Positions 3,184-10,974 of a stretch of DNA of 64,000 nt are shown one piece after another. The notes below the pieces were generated by a model. The model did no database searches and was not told the DNA's origin. It saw only the letters and a list, made by a program, of their open reading frames with translations. The stretch lies in contig NZ_LN890656.1 in assembly GCF_900066015.1 (NCBI RefSeq), positions 868,001 through 932,000 on the forward strand. Direction: 5' to 3'. Numbering within the stretch: the first letter of the stretch is position 1; every line of letters starts with the position of its first letter. The stretch comes from Candidatus Promineifilum breve. GTDB lineage: Bacteria; Chloroflexota; Anaerolineae; Promineifilales; Promineifilaceae. The translations under genes were made by a program, and so were the position numbers.

Positions 3184-4053
3184 TCACTCCGCTTGTCGGT
3201 AGCCGCTGTGCGACTCCAGGAACTTAACCACGAACGCCTCATCGATGTGGCTGCCGCCGGTGACCAGCAGTTCCAGGCACAGGTGCAGGCACAGCAGGCA
3301 GATGGAGCGCGGATAGCCGCGGGTTTCGCGCCAGATGGGCAGGATGGCGTCGGGCAGGAAGAGGGGCGGCTGGCGGCCGTCGCGCCCGGCGGCCAGCAGG
3401 CGATACTCGATGAGCGCGGCCGTGTCGTCGGGGGCCAACGGGTCGAGCGAGGATCGCGTCGCCACGCGGTCGTTGAAGTCCTTCGACTGGCGCAGATTGA
3501 TGTCCAGTTCGGGGCGGCCGAGCAGGATGAGCTGATACGCCTTGCCGCCGCGCGGGTCGCGGAAGTTGAGCAGGCGGCGCAGCTCCTTGAACTGTTCCGG
3601 CTCCAATTCGTGGGCCTCGTCGATGATGACCAGGGGCAGCACGCTGCGGGCCGTGGTGTCGGTCAGGAAGTCGCGCAGTTCGTTGAGCTGGTCTTCGGTG
3701 GCGCGGCGAGTGCGCACGCCGAACTCGGCGGCGATGCGGCGCAACAGCAGCAGGCCGCTCTTCTTGGGCGGCTCATCGACGCGGGCGGCCACGAAATCGG
3801 GCCGGCGGTCATAGCGGCTGTGGAACCAGGAGGCCAGCGTGGTCTTGCCCGTGCCCACTTCGCCGACGACGACGGAAGCCCCCTGCCCCGCCTCGACCAT
3901 GTAGCTGACCTTCGACAGGGCGCGGCGCGTCTCGGTGGAGAGGTACATGAAGCGCGGGTCGGCCTCGATGGTGAACGGGGCCACGACGACGCCCAGTTTC
4001 TCCCAATCGGGTTTGTAGCGGGTTAGATCGGTTTCCAGAAGGCTTTCGACCAT
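3184..4053 (-). CDS. ExeA/MuB-like AAA ATPase
   Basis: 289 residues. Start at 4053 is preferred over an upstream in-frame start because GGAG lies 7 nt before it and the product then begins MVESLLETDL. Residues 20-45 contain PFTIEADPRFMYLS, the opening signature of the ExeA/general-secretion-A ATPase family. Walker A is GEVGTGKTT near residue 62, Walker B is LVIIDEAHEL near residue 138, followed by a sensor region LLGRPELD and a C-terminal helical lid with an R-rich PRSI segment. Relatives act as DNA-bound ATPases in transposition (TniB, IstB, TnsC, MuB) or in secretion. No secretin, transposase or TniQ gene is nearby, so the pathway is unknown. Confidence 0.85.
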   Translation of the reverse strand: MVESLLETDLTRYKPDWEKLGVVVAPFTIEADPRFMYLSTETRRALSKVSYMVEAGQGASVVVGEVGTGKTTLASWFHSRYDRRPDFVAARVDEPPKKSGLLLLRRIAAEFGVRTRRATEDQLNELRDFLTDTTARSVLPLVIIDEAHELEPEQFKELRRLLNFRDPRGGKAYQLILLGRPELDINLRQSKDFNDRVATRSSLDPLAPDDTAALIEYRLLAAGRDGRQPPLFLPDAILPIWRETRGYPRSICLLCLHLCLELLVTGGSHIDEAFVVKFLESHSGYRQAE

Positions 4054-4137
4054 GTGACAACTCCATGAGCCGGTGGGCTGATGAACATCAACAAATTCGT
4101 GCGACGTGGATATTTTGTTAATCCGAAATAACACATT

Positions 4138-4242: not shown

Positions 4243-4271
4243 AGTATAGCCTATCTGTTACGCTTTGTACA
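4243..4271 (-). promoter_or_regulatory. Candidate promoter of the ATPase gene
   Basis: On the minus strand TGTACA (4271-4266), 17 bp, then TATACT (4248-4243). Transcription would start near 4236, giving a leader of about 180 nt. The decamer ATAGGCTATA (minus strand 4254-4245) overlaps the -10 and also occurs in the rightward promoter 86 bp away. Confidence 0.5.
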
Positions 4272-4325: not shown

Positions 4326-4374
4326 AATCTATAGGCTATAGATTATTGACATGAGCGTTCCATGCGTTTATACT
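4326..4374 (+). promoter_or_regulatory. Near-consensus rightward promoter with adjoining operator-like palindrome
   Basis: TTGACA at 4346-4351, a 17-bp spacer and TATACT at 4369-4374 make a near-perfect sigma-70-type promoter. Immediately upstream, 4326-4344 is a perfect inverted repeat AATCTATAG-G-CTATAGATT containing the decamer ATAGGCTATA, ending 1 nt before the -35. The product of this promoter is unclear: it points at the convergent RNA gene below, and the only reading frame just downstream (from 4456) looks non-coding. Confidence 0.6.
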
Positions 4375-4514: not shown

Positions 4515-4545
4515 AAAAAAAGTGGCCCCGCCGAAGCAGGGCCAC
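4515..4545 (-). terminator. Intrinsic terminator of the RNA gene
   Basis: On the minus strand GTGGCCC (4545-4539), a 10-nt loop, GGGCCAC (4528-4522), then seven T (4521-4515). The perfect 7-bp GC-rich stem plus U-run is a textbook intrinsic terminator. Confidence 0.85.
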
Positions 4546-4681
4546 CAGTATAAGCGACGGCCTCCTTTCTGCTTATCGACGCCGCCAACGTCGTGGGTGA
4601 TCGCCCGAGGGCCATCATCCGAAGCAGCGCCCCTTAATTGGGGAGGGGGGTTTTATGCCCAAAGGAAGCCTACTCTATCCA
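4515..4681 (-). ncRNA. Structured non-coding RNA of about 165 nt
   Basis: A strong promoter (4688-4716) and an intrinsic terminator (4515-4545) frame a 165-nt transcript with no plausible reading frame. It folds on paper into a three-way junction. P1 pairs GGCUUCCUUU (4670-4661) with AAAGGAGGCC (4568-4559). P2 is a CCCC/GGGG hairpin with an AAUUAA loop (4643-4630). P3 pairs CUGCUU (4627-4622) with AAGCAG (4574-4569) and encloses two smaller hairpins, one closed by UGAU/AUCA and one by CGACG/CGUCG. Size and the closed outer stem recall 6S RNA, but the internal loop does not obviously fit, so identity is open. The AAA ATPase gene begins 460 bp downstream on the same strand. Confidence 0.6.
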
Positions 4682-4687
4682 GGTATG

Positions 4688-4716
4688 AGCATACCATAGT
4701 CGATGCAGCGTGTCAA
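4688..4716 (-). promoter_or_regulatory. Strong promoter of the RNA gene
   Basis: On the minus strand TTGACA (4716-4711), 17-bp spacer, TATGCT (4693-4688). Predicted start at 4681-4679. Confidence 0.75.
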
Positions 4717-4723
4717 TTATGGG

Positions 4724-4875
4724 GAATGACGAATGACGAATGACGAATGACGAATTAAGAGCGTAGCGGGTAGCAGGTGGCGAGTGGCAGGTAGCATTTA
4801 CCTTGCGACTCGCCACTCGCCACTTGCCACTCGCCCCTCTTCATTCGTAATTCGTCATTCGTAATTCGTAATTCC
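4724..4875. repeat. Nested A-E-E'-A' composite palindrome
   Basis: Outer arms are A-type runs (GACGAATGACGAATTAAGAG on the left, CTCTTCATTCGTAATTCG on the right). Between them sits a complete E-type palindrome (GGTGGCGAGTGGC... and GCGACTCGCCACTCGCC...). The element reads as one palindrome placed in the loop of another. Confidence 0.75.
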
Positions 4876-4907
4876 CTTGCTCCCGCCTGGCCAAGGCAAT
4901 CGAATCG

Positions 4908-6659
4908 GTGAAAACGCAGGATTTGCCTGCGGATGGCCGTGCTTTGCCCGCTGCCGGCGGGGAGCTATCGGAGGCCGTCCGGGCCGCGCAGGAAAGGTTG
5001 TTGGAACTACGCCGGGCGCACGGGGTGGAGGCGCGCGGCCGAACGACGAGCGACGTCAGCGGTGGGTTGAAACCCACCGCTGGCACACCAAGTGCGTTAA
5101 AACGCACTGCAAGCGAGGCTCTGCCCTCTTCAACCGGCTTTAGCCGGGTTTCGTGTGCCAGCCGCGGGTTTGAACCCGCGTCATCCCTCACCTACGACAG
5201 CCGCCACACCAGCCAAACCCTGGTGGCCCACCTGCGGGCGGCGGGGGCGCGGCGGGCGCGACAAGCGGCGGCCGATGACCAGCAATGGCTGGATGAATTA
5301 CGAATTACGAATTACGAATTACGAATTAAGAGAGGAGAGGACGATCGCGCGCTTTCTCCCCTGCCCCCCTGCTCCCCTGCCCCCCTGCTCCCCTGCTCCC
5401 CCGCCCCCCTGCTCCCCTGCCCCCCTGCCCCCCTGCCCGCTGTCCGCATCTACCCCGACCTCGCCCTCGCCATCCTGCGGCGCAAGAAGGCGGCGGCGGG
5501 GCGGGTGTGGCTGCTGCTGCGCCAGGCCGACGCGGCCGGGCGGGGGCGCGTGGCTGTGGCCGAGGCGCTGCGGCTGCTGTGCGGCGACGGCTCGCCGCTG
5601 CGCATCTGCGGCCGGCGGCAGTTGACCAATCTGCTGGCGGCGGGCGAGGGGCTGTTCTGGCAGCGCGACCGGGGGCGGGATGGGACGGAATGGCTGCGGC
5701 TGCATTCGGCGGCGCGGCTGGCGGCCGGGTTGGGCGTGGCGCGGCTGGGCGGGTCGCCGGTGGCCGTGCCCGTGGGCGCGCTGACGGGCACGATCGGCCA
5801 GGCGCGGGCGCATCTGTATGCCGCCTTCCACAGCGGCCGCACCAGCCACGATCTGCTCAGCGGCGAACGGCGCGCCCGTGGCCCCATCGCCCGCGAGACG
5901 TTATGTAAACTGTCCGGCGCGTCGCGCAATAGCCAGCGCAATTATGAGCGCCGGGCGGCCGTAGGGCGGCGCAGCGCCATCGCCCTCGGCCCGCGCCTGA
6001 CGGCCGTGGACGAGCACGAGGTGGCCTGGCAGCGCGGCCGGGCGCTGTTCCATTATCGCGACACAAAGGGGCGCTATGGTCGCCCCGGCGCGGTCTATCT
6101 GGCCTGGCAATTGCCCAACGAATACACCGGCCCCCACGCTACGCTGCCCCGCGGCGGCCAGAAGCGGCTCAATCGGGCCATCTCCGACCTGTTCCATGAC
6201 GGGATGACGGGTAATGGGGATGAGGACCGACCGCCGACGACTGACCACCGACCACCGACGACTGACCACCGACCGCGGGAAGAAAAACGCGAAGGCGCGC
6301 AGGTGAGAAAGTCAGCAGCCCCCCGGCTCCCTTTCTCCCCTGCTCCCCTGCTCCCCAGCCCCCCTGCTCCCCAGCGCCTCTTCTACAACTCAGCCAAGGC
6401 GGCCTTCCTGGCGCGGGGCGAGCATGAGCGGTATTGGCGGCAGGGCGGCGTGTGGCTATGGCAAAGAGAATTACGAATGACGAATGACGAATTACGAATG
6501 AAGAGGGCCGGCAGCCAGGCGCAGGCTCCAGCAAGCGACTCGCCACCCGCTACCTGCCACTCGCCACTCGCCACCCGCCACCCGCTACTCGCCACCCCTC
6601 CAAATTCGTCATTCGTCATTCGTAATTCGTCATTTGCCGGAAATTGTTTGCACCCATAA
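4908..6659 (+). CDS. DNA-binding-like protein of unknown function with many in-frame repeat elements
   Basis: 583 codons from a GTG at 4908. Family not recognised. Non-repeat parts look like real protein: residues 1-52 (helical, ELSEAVRAAQERLLELRRA), 94-128, 180-440 and 490-520. Residues 190-260 resemble a winged-helix (RVWLLLRQADAAGRGRVAV, then ICGRRQLTNLLAAGEG) and a second helix-turn-helix-like stretch follows (PIARETLCKLSGASRNSQ, about 325-345). Between these blocks lie in-frame copies of K (residues 53-93), A plus D (129-178), a GACCACCGACC run (440-457), D (470-489) and an A-E-A' composite (520-577). A replication- or partition-type DNA-binding role is a guess. Because the A and D units lack stop codons in most frames, part of the tail may not be functional protein. 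Confidence 0.6.
   Translation: MKTQDLPADGRALPAAGGELSEAVRAAQERLLELRRAHGVEARGRTTSDVSGGLKPTAGTPSALKRTASEALPSSTGFSRVSCASRGFEPASSLTYDSRHTSQTLVAHLRAAGARRARQAAADDQQWLDELRITNYELRIKRGEDDRALSPLPPCSPAPLLPCSPAPLLPCPPAPLPAVRIYPDLALAILRRKKAAAGRVWLLLRQADAAGRGRVAVAEALRLLCGDGSPLRICGRRQLTNLLAAGEGLFWQRDRGRDGTEWLRLHSAARLAAGLGVARLGGSPVAVPVGALTGTIGQARAHLYAAFHSGRTSHDLLSGERRARGPIARETLCKLSGASRNSQRNYERRAAVGRRSAIALGPRLTAVDEHEVAWQRGRALFHYRDTKGRYGRPGAVYLAWQLPNEYTGPHATLPRGGQKRLNRAISDLFHDGMTGNGDEDRPPTTDHRPPTTDHRPREEKREGAQVRKSAAPRLPFSPAPLLPSPPAPQRLFYNSAKAAFLARGEHERYWRQGGVWLWQRELRMTNDELRMKRAGSQAQAPASDSPPATCHSPLATRHPLLATPPNSSFVIRNSSFAGNCLHP
5064..5441. repeat. K, A and D elements inside a reading frame
   Basis: A full K element at 5064-5185 (AACCGGCTTTAGCCGGGTTT, then GCGGGTTTGAACCCGC), an A run at 5293-5332 and a D array of CCCCTGCTC units at 5353-5441 all sit inside the 583-codon gene without breaking it. 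Further copies in the same gene lie at 6226-6280, 6317-6376 (D) and 6466-6640 (A-E-A'). Confidence 0.8.
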
Positions 6660-10351: not shown

Positions 10352-10579
10352 ATGCAATACACCGTACACGAAGCCAAGACCAATCTGTCGAAGCTCATCC
10401 GTCTGGCGCTGGCCGGGGAAGAGGTCATCATTGCCCGCGGCGACGAGCCGGTGGTGATGCTGGTGCCCGTGGCGGCCGAGAAGCCGCAGCGTCGTATTGG
10501 TGGGGCGAAGGGATTCATTCTCTATATGGCCGATGATTTTGACGCGCCACTAGAAGAGTTTGCGGAGTATATGGAGTGA
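10352..10579 (+). CDS. Phd/YefM-type antitoxin
   Basis: 75 residues with the Phd/YefM N-terminal fold signature: VHEAKTNLSKLI, then GEEVIIARGDEPVVMLVPV. The C-terminal part (ADDFDAPLEEFAEYME) is the acidic toxin-binding tail. The last codons overlap the toxin GTG start by 4 nt. No ribosome binding site is evident, which agrees with a leaderless transcript. Predicted role: binds the PIN toxin and represses its own promoter. Confidence 0.9.
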   Translation: MQYTVHEAKTNLSKLIRLALAGEEVIIARGDEPVVMLVPVAAEKPQRRIGGAKGFILYMADDFDAPLEEFAEYME

Positions 10580-10974
10580 GGTTACTTCTAGATACCCATG
10601 CCCTTTTGTGGCTACTAGACGACCGCGCATTGAGTACAGTTGCGCAGACTGTTTTCCTCGATCCTGAGAATGAATTATTCTTCAGCGTCGCCAGTTATTG
10701 GGAGATTTGCATTAAAGTCAGCCTTGGTAAGCTGAATATAGGCGACGATTGGATTAACCAGATCGATGAAGAGCTGGCGATTAACGGCATCACCTGGCTG
10801 CCCATCGAAAAGAGCCACTGCCTGGAACTCATGGCCCTGCCCCGCCCCGCGCAGGTGGCCGGCCACCGCGACCCGTTCGACCGGCTGCTCATCGCCCAGG
10901 CGCGGGCCGAGGGGCTGAGCGTGCTGTCGGCCGACCCCAACTTCGGGCGGTATGACGTGGCCGTGTTGTGGTAA
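10576..10974 (+). CDS. VapC-type PIN-domain ribonuclease toxin
   Basis: 132 residues from a GTG overlapping the antitoxin stop. Conserved acidic residues of the PIN active site are present: Asp in LLDTHALLW, Glu in SYWEICIK, Asp pair in HRDPFDRLLIAQA and Asp in LSADPNF. This is the VapC subgroup usually paired with Phd-type antitoxins. Unlike the pair at 1.6-2.2 kb the gene is intact. Expected activity is Mg-dependent cleavage of RNA, often tRNA. Confidence 0.9.
   Translation: MRLLLDTHALLWLLDDRALSTVAQTVFLDPENELFFSVASYWEICIKVSLGKLNIGDDWINQIDEELAINGITWLPIEKSHCLELMALPRPAQVAGHRDPFDRLLIAQARAEGLSVLSADPNFGRYDVAVLW

Follow-up and report, generated by a model that had tools for sequence, protein, structure and literature searches.

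Our analysis of a 64,000-nt stretch of the ‘Candidatus Promineifilum breve’ genome (hereafter, the window, that is, the whole stretch of DNA analysed) revealed what is, judging from its sequence and that of its homologues, a real small-RNA gene, previously uncatalogued and not represented in Rfam. Most likely, this RNA is a cis-encoded antisense (counter-transcribed) copy-control RNA that restrains the divergently oriented gene rep in a second-chromosome replicon. Antisense control of initiators is classical, as in the cases of CopA, Inc RNA, RNAIII and the repABC ctRNA (PMC6090056; PMC5304414). Novelty lies in the families to which the RNA and the initiator belong, in the phylum, and in an antisense RNA being combined with a predicted RepE/Pi-like initiator fold on a probable second chromosome; a search of the literature found no paper describing the RNA/rep system. 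For second chromosomes, detailed knowledge of how replication is controlled exists for few lineages (Vibrio RctB, repABC). If our interpretation is correct, second chromosomes and plasmids throughout a family of Chloroflexota would have a candidate origin, initiators of a novel sequence family and a matching antisense RNA, all of them unannotated so far: Rfam lacks the RNA, and Pfam the initiator. The RNA and rep could then serve as replicon-typing markers for this group and would constitute a testable copy-control circuit.

The first-pass annotation had described, at 4515–4716, a promoter, a structured RNA devoid of a reading frame and a terminator, leaving the strand unstated. The unit is real and its coordinates are correct, with the promoter, an RNA of ~167 nt and the terminator all located there, and we now place it on the minus strand. 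The TTGACA-17-TATGCT promoter has its −35 element at 4716–4711 and its −10 element ending at 4688, the 10-bp closing stem (P1) pairs 4670–4661 with 4568–4559, and the intrinsic terminator comprises a stem at 4546–4521 followed by 7 U; as previously proposed, a conserved open reading frame is absent from the unit. The predicted fold of the minus strand from 4681 to 4515 has an energy of −77.3 kcal/mol (z = −3.95), with none of 200 shuffled sequences being equally stable, whereas the plus-strand fold is far less notable (z = −1.99). Transcription of the small RNA is thus predicted from the promoter, the fold and the terminator.

Table 1. Coordinates of the RNA gene, the predicted rep leader and the adjacent genes in the window
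Feature	Positions	Strand	Basis
192-aa protein after the ATPase, gene order conserved; no family match above cut-off	2354–2932	−	ORF clustering
AAA ATPase (AAA_22/TniB-like)	3184–4134	−	adjoins the RNA in the main clade only
Promoter-like site of the ATPase gene; relatives TTGACA..TATACGAT	4243–4271	−	sequence, alignment
Palindrome ATCTATAGGCTATAGATT, putative operator directly next to the rep promoter	4327–4344	+	alignment, genome scan
Predicted rep leader promoter TTGACA-17-TATACT, directed across the RNA locus toward rep	4346–4374	+	sequence; 23/23 main-clade loci
Small RNA, putative antisense, ~167 nt	4515–4681	−	promoter and terminator, fold z −3.95, homologues, covariation
Intrinsic terminator of the RNA	4515–4546	−	sequence; stem covaries
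Closing stem P1, 3′ arm AAAGGAGGCC, partner of 4661–4670	4559–4568	−	fold and covariation
Hairpin P4, conserved loop UUGGCGG; stem variants CGACG/CGUCG, GGUG/CACC	4577–4593	−	alignments
Near-invariant core CCCCCCUCCCCAAUUAAGGGGC with hairpin CCCC-AAUUAA-GGGG	4629–4650	−	alignments, pattern scan
Shine-Dalgarno-like GGGGAGGGGGG and start codon ATG, opposite the RNA core	4640–4657	+	57-RNA comparison
Short leader ORF, MPKGSLLYPGMSIP	4655–4699	+	starts at the ATG opposite the RNA core
Closing stem P1, 5′ arm GGCUUCCUUU	4661–4670	−	predicted fold and covariation
Sigma-70 promoter of the RNA, TTGACA-17-TATGCT, extended −10 (TG)	4688–4716	−	sequence; invariant in family alignment
rep, replication-initiator-like gene; conserved core 5427–6230, predicted tandem winged helices	4908–6659	+	neighbour clustering, alignment, predicted structure

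Homologues of the RNA are widespread within one family of Chloroflexota. Searching 98 relatives with blastn yielded close copies within the genus (77–86% identity), and the promoter together with the 5′ half of the RNA was recovered from most family genomes. When 84,980 species were scanned for CCCCCTCCCCANNNAAGGGGC, 89 loci were retrieved, mostly from Chloroflexota (Promineifilum, Ardenticatenaceae and Anaerolineae MAGs), which have the promoter-core-hairpin-terminator layout in common; these and later loci furnished a set of 57 non-redundant RNAs. Counts across loci, here and below, are not independent because related sequences are included. Viral contigs retrieved by an 18-nt pattern share that 18-mer only and represent chance matches. 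Among the 34 sampled family genomes that are at least 90% complete, the RNA was detected in 29 (in one as a weak match) and rep in 30, with one to four copies each. Outside the family, the RNA model (R1) is near absent from the rest of the class, a range that parallels that of rep, which was found in 4 of ~363 other genomes of the class. At some loci (L111 1292–2262, L214 2903–4166, L046, L115, L118), two or three tandem RNAs, each copy with its own promoter and terminator, lie upstream of a single rep.

The predicted structure is supported by covariation across the homologous loci, which is strong for the closing stem singled out by the first-pass annotation. Pairing in P1 is retained with unrelated sequences, namely, GGCUUCCUUU/AAAGGAGGCC, AGUGAGCUACC/GGUAGCUUGCU, GACCGCAUA/UAUGCGGUU, AACAACCAC/GUGGUUGUU and UCAGACUCAU/AUGGGUCUGA. 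In an alignment of 16 sequences, 94.5% of the cells are paired, a value that drops to 39–54% when the alignment is slid by one column, and two-sided changes occur at 8 pairs compared to a mean of 2.8 in shuffled alignments, with the score reached in 0 of 500 shuffles. The terminator stem covaries as well, and G-U pairing within P1 and within the terminator indicates that the fold under selection is that of the minus strand. In P4, the loop UUGGCGG is retained in the main clade while the stem changes. By contrast, the hairpin GGGG-ACAUAAAAU-CCCC shows weak pairing support, with 8 of the 16 sequences unpaired at one pair, so that the opposite strand offers a better explanation for why it is conserved.

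Clustering of neighbouring open reading frames identified the constant partner of the RNA as the divergent gene rep, at ~70 loci; when rep loci were instead sampled by protein, the RNA promoter pointed away from rep in 28 of 30, and the strict RNA core was present in 24 of 30. Each of the 23 main-clade loci has a TTGACA-17-TA[TGA]ACT promoter that matches the consensus at 10–11 of 12 positions, lies beyond the RNA terminator and is aimed back through the RNA at rep, and the interval between the RNA and rep contains no promoter above 9 of 12 consensus matches at these loci. With the rep promoter in this position, the leader of the rep mRNA would hold the full complement of the RNA. The comparison thereby establishes, for the main clade specifically, that the RNA gene is antisense to the predicted rep leader; at more distant paralogous loci, which belong to other elements and often carry 2–3 tandem RNAs, a search over 330 nt mostly failed to find a strong promoter directed at rep. 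The palindrome ATCTATAnnnTATAGAT, which is conserved throughout the family, precedes the rep promoter at 17 of the 23 main-clade loci, and the combination of palindrome and rep promoter occurs a single time in the genome. This palindrome is likely to provide a second, protein-based control, and could be bound by the 192-aa protein or by the ATPase encoded nearby.

The leader strand opposite the RNA core reads GGGGAGGGGGnUUUUnUG, in which a start codon follows a Shine-Dalgarno sequence. Across the 57 RNAs, AUG, GUG or UUG occurs 4–7 nt after GGGGAGGGG in 51, compared to 3–12 of 57 in control windows, and at the same offsets NUG was counted 64 times and CUG 0 times. Nearly all of the tandem RNAs in L111, L214 and L046 have a leader start site of their own. 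The peptides potentially encoded in the leader are short and not conserved, with only the initiation site being kept, and most of these ORFs end before rep; because frames and sequences differ, we rejected the possibilities that the leader peptide forms the N-terminus of Rep or is itself conserved. Retention of the start site without the peptide is expected if translation of the leader ORF, rather than its product, is what matters. Such is reported to be the case in R1 and in REx-C (PMC5304414; for R1, citing Blomberg 1992).

The locus displays three features of a counter-transcribed RNA, namely, location opposite the rep leader (in the main clade), a constitutive-type promoter and an intrinsic terminator of its own, and strongly folded stems under selection; as in CopA/tap-like systems, the leader also has a start codon and a ribosome site where it faces the RNA. 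We propose that the RNA represses rep and lowers copy number, as follows. The RNA would pair with the rep mRNA leader via exposed loops, and the resulting duplex would hide the leader ribosome site, leaving the leader ORF untranslated and, if translation of the leader ORF and rep is coupled, reducing rep expression. At higher copy number, more RNA would be made and hence less Rep, setting the replication rate of the replicon; tandem RNAs would act as serial brakes, and a protein bound at the palindrome would add another layer of regulation at the rep promoter. A less likely alternative is that the RNA triggers early termination of the rep mRNA.

The near-invariant, C-rich core, which resembles an anti-Shine-Dalgarno sequence and is perfectly complementary to an idealised ribosome-binding site with a start codon, could also be read as belonging to a trans-acting RNA that represses many mRNAs and sits beside rep for historical reasons, and the tandem copies at several loci are compatible with such a role. 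We consider this unlikely, given that the genome contains no second near-complement of the core beyond the RNA's own locus, that the strong RNA matches in the family adjoin rep genes, and that the opposite strand accounts for the conserved start codon (never CTG). Trans targets sought by complementarity in the same genome or at transposase starts included none that was convincing.

The gene rep is new to the databases: searches against Pfam, PHROG and PDB sequences returned nothing, none of 24 members yielded a match to a Pfam Rep family, and comparison with PLSDB plasmids and INPHARED phages produced no match. The 24-member alignment (A2) contains 39 invariant columns. AlphaFold models of a rep relative and of the window core 5427–6230 (the latter with pLDDT 88 and pTM 0.82) consist of two winged-helix domains. 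Among the aligned PDB chains, it is the initiators RepE54 of mini-F (160–179 residues, Z up to 7.7) and Pi of R6K (176 residues, Z 6.0) whose alignments extend over both domains, with all matches below Z 8; single winged helices of the MarR or ORC type reach similar scores over half the length, and Foldseek alone gave nothing significant. Scores in this range are suggestive, rather than proof, of a RepE/Pi-like tandem winged-helix fold. A distant rep homologue was identified in another Chloroflexota family (G246:C6; L234, L235), on a contig with a 1,713-bp identical terminal overlap, which implies a circle of 35,187 bp. This circle, a mobilisable plasmid, encodes a MobA/MobL relaxase, a VirD4-like ATPase, and actin-like and primase-like proteins. 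No locus-specific iteron-like 14-mer repeated three times was found near rep. The rep linkers in the window are enlarged by local repeats, and arrays of the heptamers GAATTAC/GACGAAT with inverted repeats are found at 4719–4878 (between the RNA promoter and rep) and at 5290–5330 (inside rep); the GAATTAC arrays form 41 clusters dispersed over contig C2, a distribution that argues against their being iterons.

‘Ca. P. breve’ has been reported to possess two chromosomes and a plasmid (PMC6753630), in agreement with a genome of 5.03 Mb divided into 3.99, 1.00 and ~0.04 Mb. On the 1,004,044-bp contig C2, joined from pieces, the detrended cumulative GC skew has its minimum at 870,525 and its maximum near 437,000, with the RNA at 872,505; the minimum is shallow, the regions 860–885 and 920–930 kb being nearly as low. 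In two other genera, the skew changes sign close to the RNA, at ~30 kb with the RNA at 27.5 kb (G050:C12), and at 600–603.5 kb, following 200 kb of constant negative skew, with the RNA at 601.6 kb (G013:C12). A GC-skew minimum at the rep locus, as expected of a second-chromosome origin, is observed in three genera. On contig C1, which carries the 16S rRNA gene, sparsely sampled skew shows a separate minimum. The dnaA gene is on C2 (G000:C2:670190) rather than on C1, which, like the shallow skew minimum, counts against the proposed reading, and no cluster of DnaA boxes was found at the RNA/rep locus. Most likely, this locus is the origin region of the second chromosome, the 1.0-Mb C2, and the fold, the plasmid relative and the skew minimum suggest that Rep starts replication.

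Location of the skew minimum at the locus and convergent transcription across it raise another, less probable scenario, in which direct action at the origin, as a primer or through transcriptional activation, is the main role of the RNA or of the leader transcript opposing it, and control of rep is secondary. However, the RNA ends in a strong, covarying terminator, no site of an RNA-DNA hybrid was identified, and the initiator is predicted to be RepE/Pi-like, a type that works without primer RNA. Even less credence can be given to a role of the RNA as a guide, as suggested in the first-pass annotation, or as a cofactor RNA for the neighbouring AAA ATPase in a mobile or defence system. The ATPase gene is indeed kept downstream of the RNA at ~36 loci and encodes a TniB-like domain, but the constant partner is rep, on the other side; the ATPase adjoins the RNA in the main clade alone and has a promoter-like site of its own, many loci combine the RNA and rep without it, and the main clade lacks a transposase, a nuclease or a variable guide segment. 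Elsewhere in the window, two toxin-antitoxin-like pairs with PIN-like second genes (1630–2239 and 10352–10974, both on the plus strand) were recognised by eye from translations.

The RNA itself fits no known family. Rfam gave zero matches at the gathering score across the entire window and chance-level matches only at a relaxed threshold for the RNA locus and six homologous loci; the MIR matches seen at the relaxed threshold correspond to the palindromic AATTACG repeat at 4719–4878 rather than to an RNA family. Together with the clear covariation, this result favours the new RNA class that had been offered as one reading of the locus over another, 6S RNA, which is rejected: the RNA locus has no match to the 6S covariance model (RF00013), and the genome's own 6S RNA is located at C1:2082756-2082933 (53.5 bits). 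A divergent housekeeping RNA of any kind (6S, SRP, RNase P or tmRNA), for which the size and the stand-alone gene would be suitable, is next to inconceivable, in view of the lack of an Rfam match, the 6S RNA elsewhere in the genome, and an RNA that is missing from most of the class and multicopy in some genomes.

Comparison with known systems underscores both the familiar logic and the distinct components of the proposed circuit. The predicted tandem winged-helix fold over ~170 residues links Rep to RepE (mini-F) and Pi (R6K), but there is no detectable sequence similarity, and the replicons of RepE and Pi use iterons, not antisense RNA, whereas no clear iterons are present here. RNAIII/repR of pIP501 involves a counter-transcribed, multi-stem RNA in the rep leader that is similar in length to the RNA described here; the mechanism of RNAIII is transcription attenuation, whereas blocking of the leader ribosome site is proposed for the present RNA. 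A parallel in layout is CopA/tap/repA of R1 (and Inc RNA of IncI/IncK), where the antisense RNA opposes the rep leader and is positioned so as to block ribosome entry at a short leader ORF (PMC5304414, citing Blomberg 1992). The RNA described here differs from CopA in sequence and fold, with a closed three-way junction and an invariant C-rich core, and the initiator is predicted to be RepE/Pi-like rather than an IncFII RepA, in another phylum and on a probable second chromosome. The REx-C module of Pseudomonas RepJ/RepA-PFP plasmids likewise combines a putative antisense RNA, covarying stems, a terminator, an opposing promoter and a short, non-conserved leader peptide gene, with rep downstream (PMC5304414); no sequence relation is known, and both the rep family and the host differ. 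Finally, the repABC ctRNA (RepE/incA) of alphaproteobacterial megaplasmids and chromids is an antisense RNA that represses a second-chromosome initiator, but it is ~50 nt long and lies within an operon, between repB and repC, with RepC as the initiator (PMC6090056), whereas the RNA here is 145–170 nt long, multi-stemmed and upstream of a lone rep.

A ~32-nt version of the core (GGGCATAAAATCCCCCTCCCCATCAAAGGGGC and variants) was also observed in antisense orientation downstream of transposases of four unrelated Bacillota families: IS91 (with a tyrosine recombinase), IS110, IS1380 and ISAs1. These loci comprise L042, L055 and L063 (Eubacterium plexicaudatum), L044, L049, L057 and L108 (IS91-type), L050, L060 and L103 (Paenibacillus, IS1380), and L089 (ISAs1); the core lies ~35–55 nt past the transposase stop codon, or 131 nt in E. 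plexicaudatum. Matches to the core on plasmids are at chance level. Conceivably, albeit doubtfully, the core is a portable copy-control element, a single module of RNA and ribosome site taken up by both replicons and transposons, across two phyla, as a means of keeping their own multiplication in check. Its occurrence in both the RNA and unrelated transposons is a puzzle that deserves a separate study. In E. plexicaudatum, the core is clearly inside the transposon element, and 12 copies were detected compared to none for a reversed control pattern.
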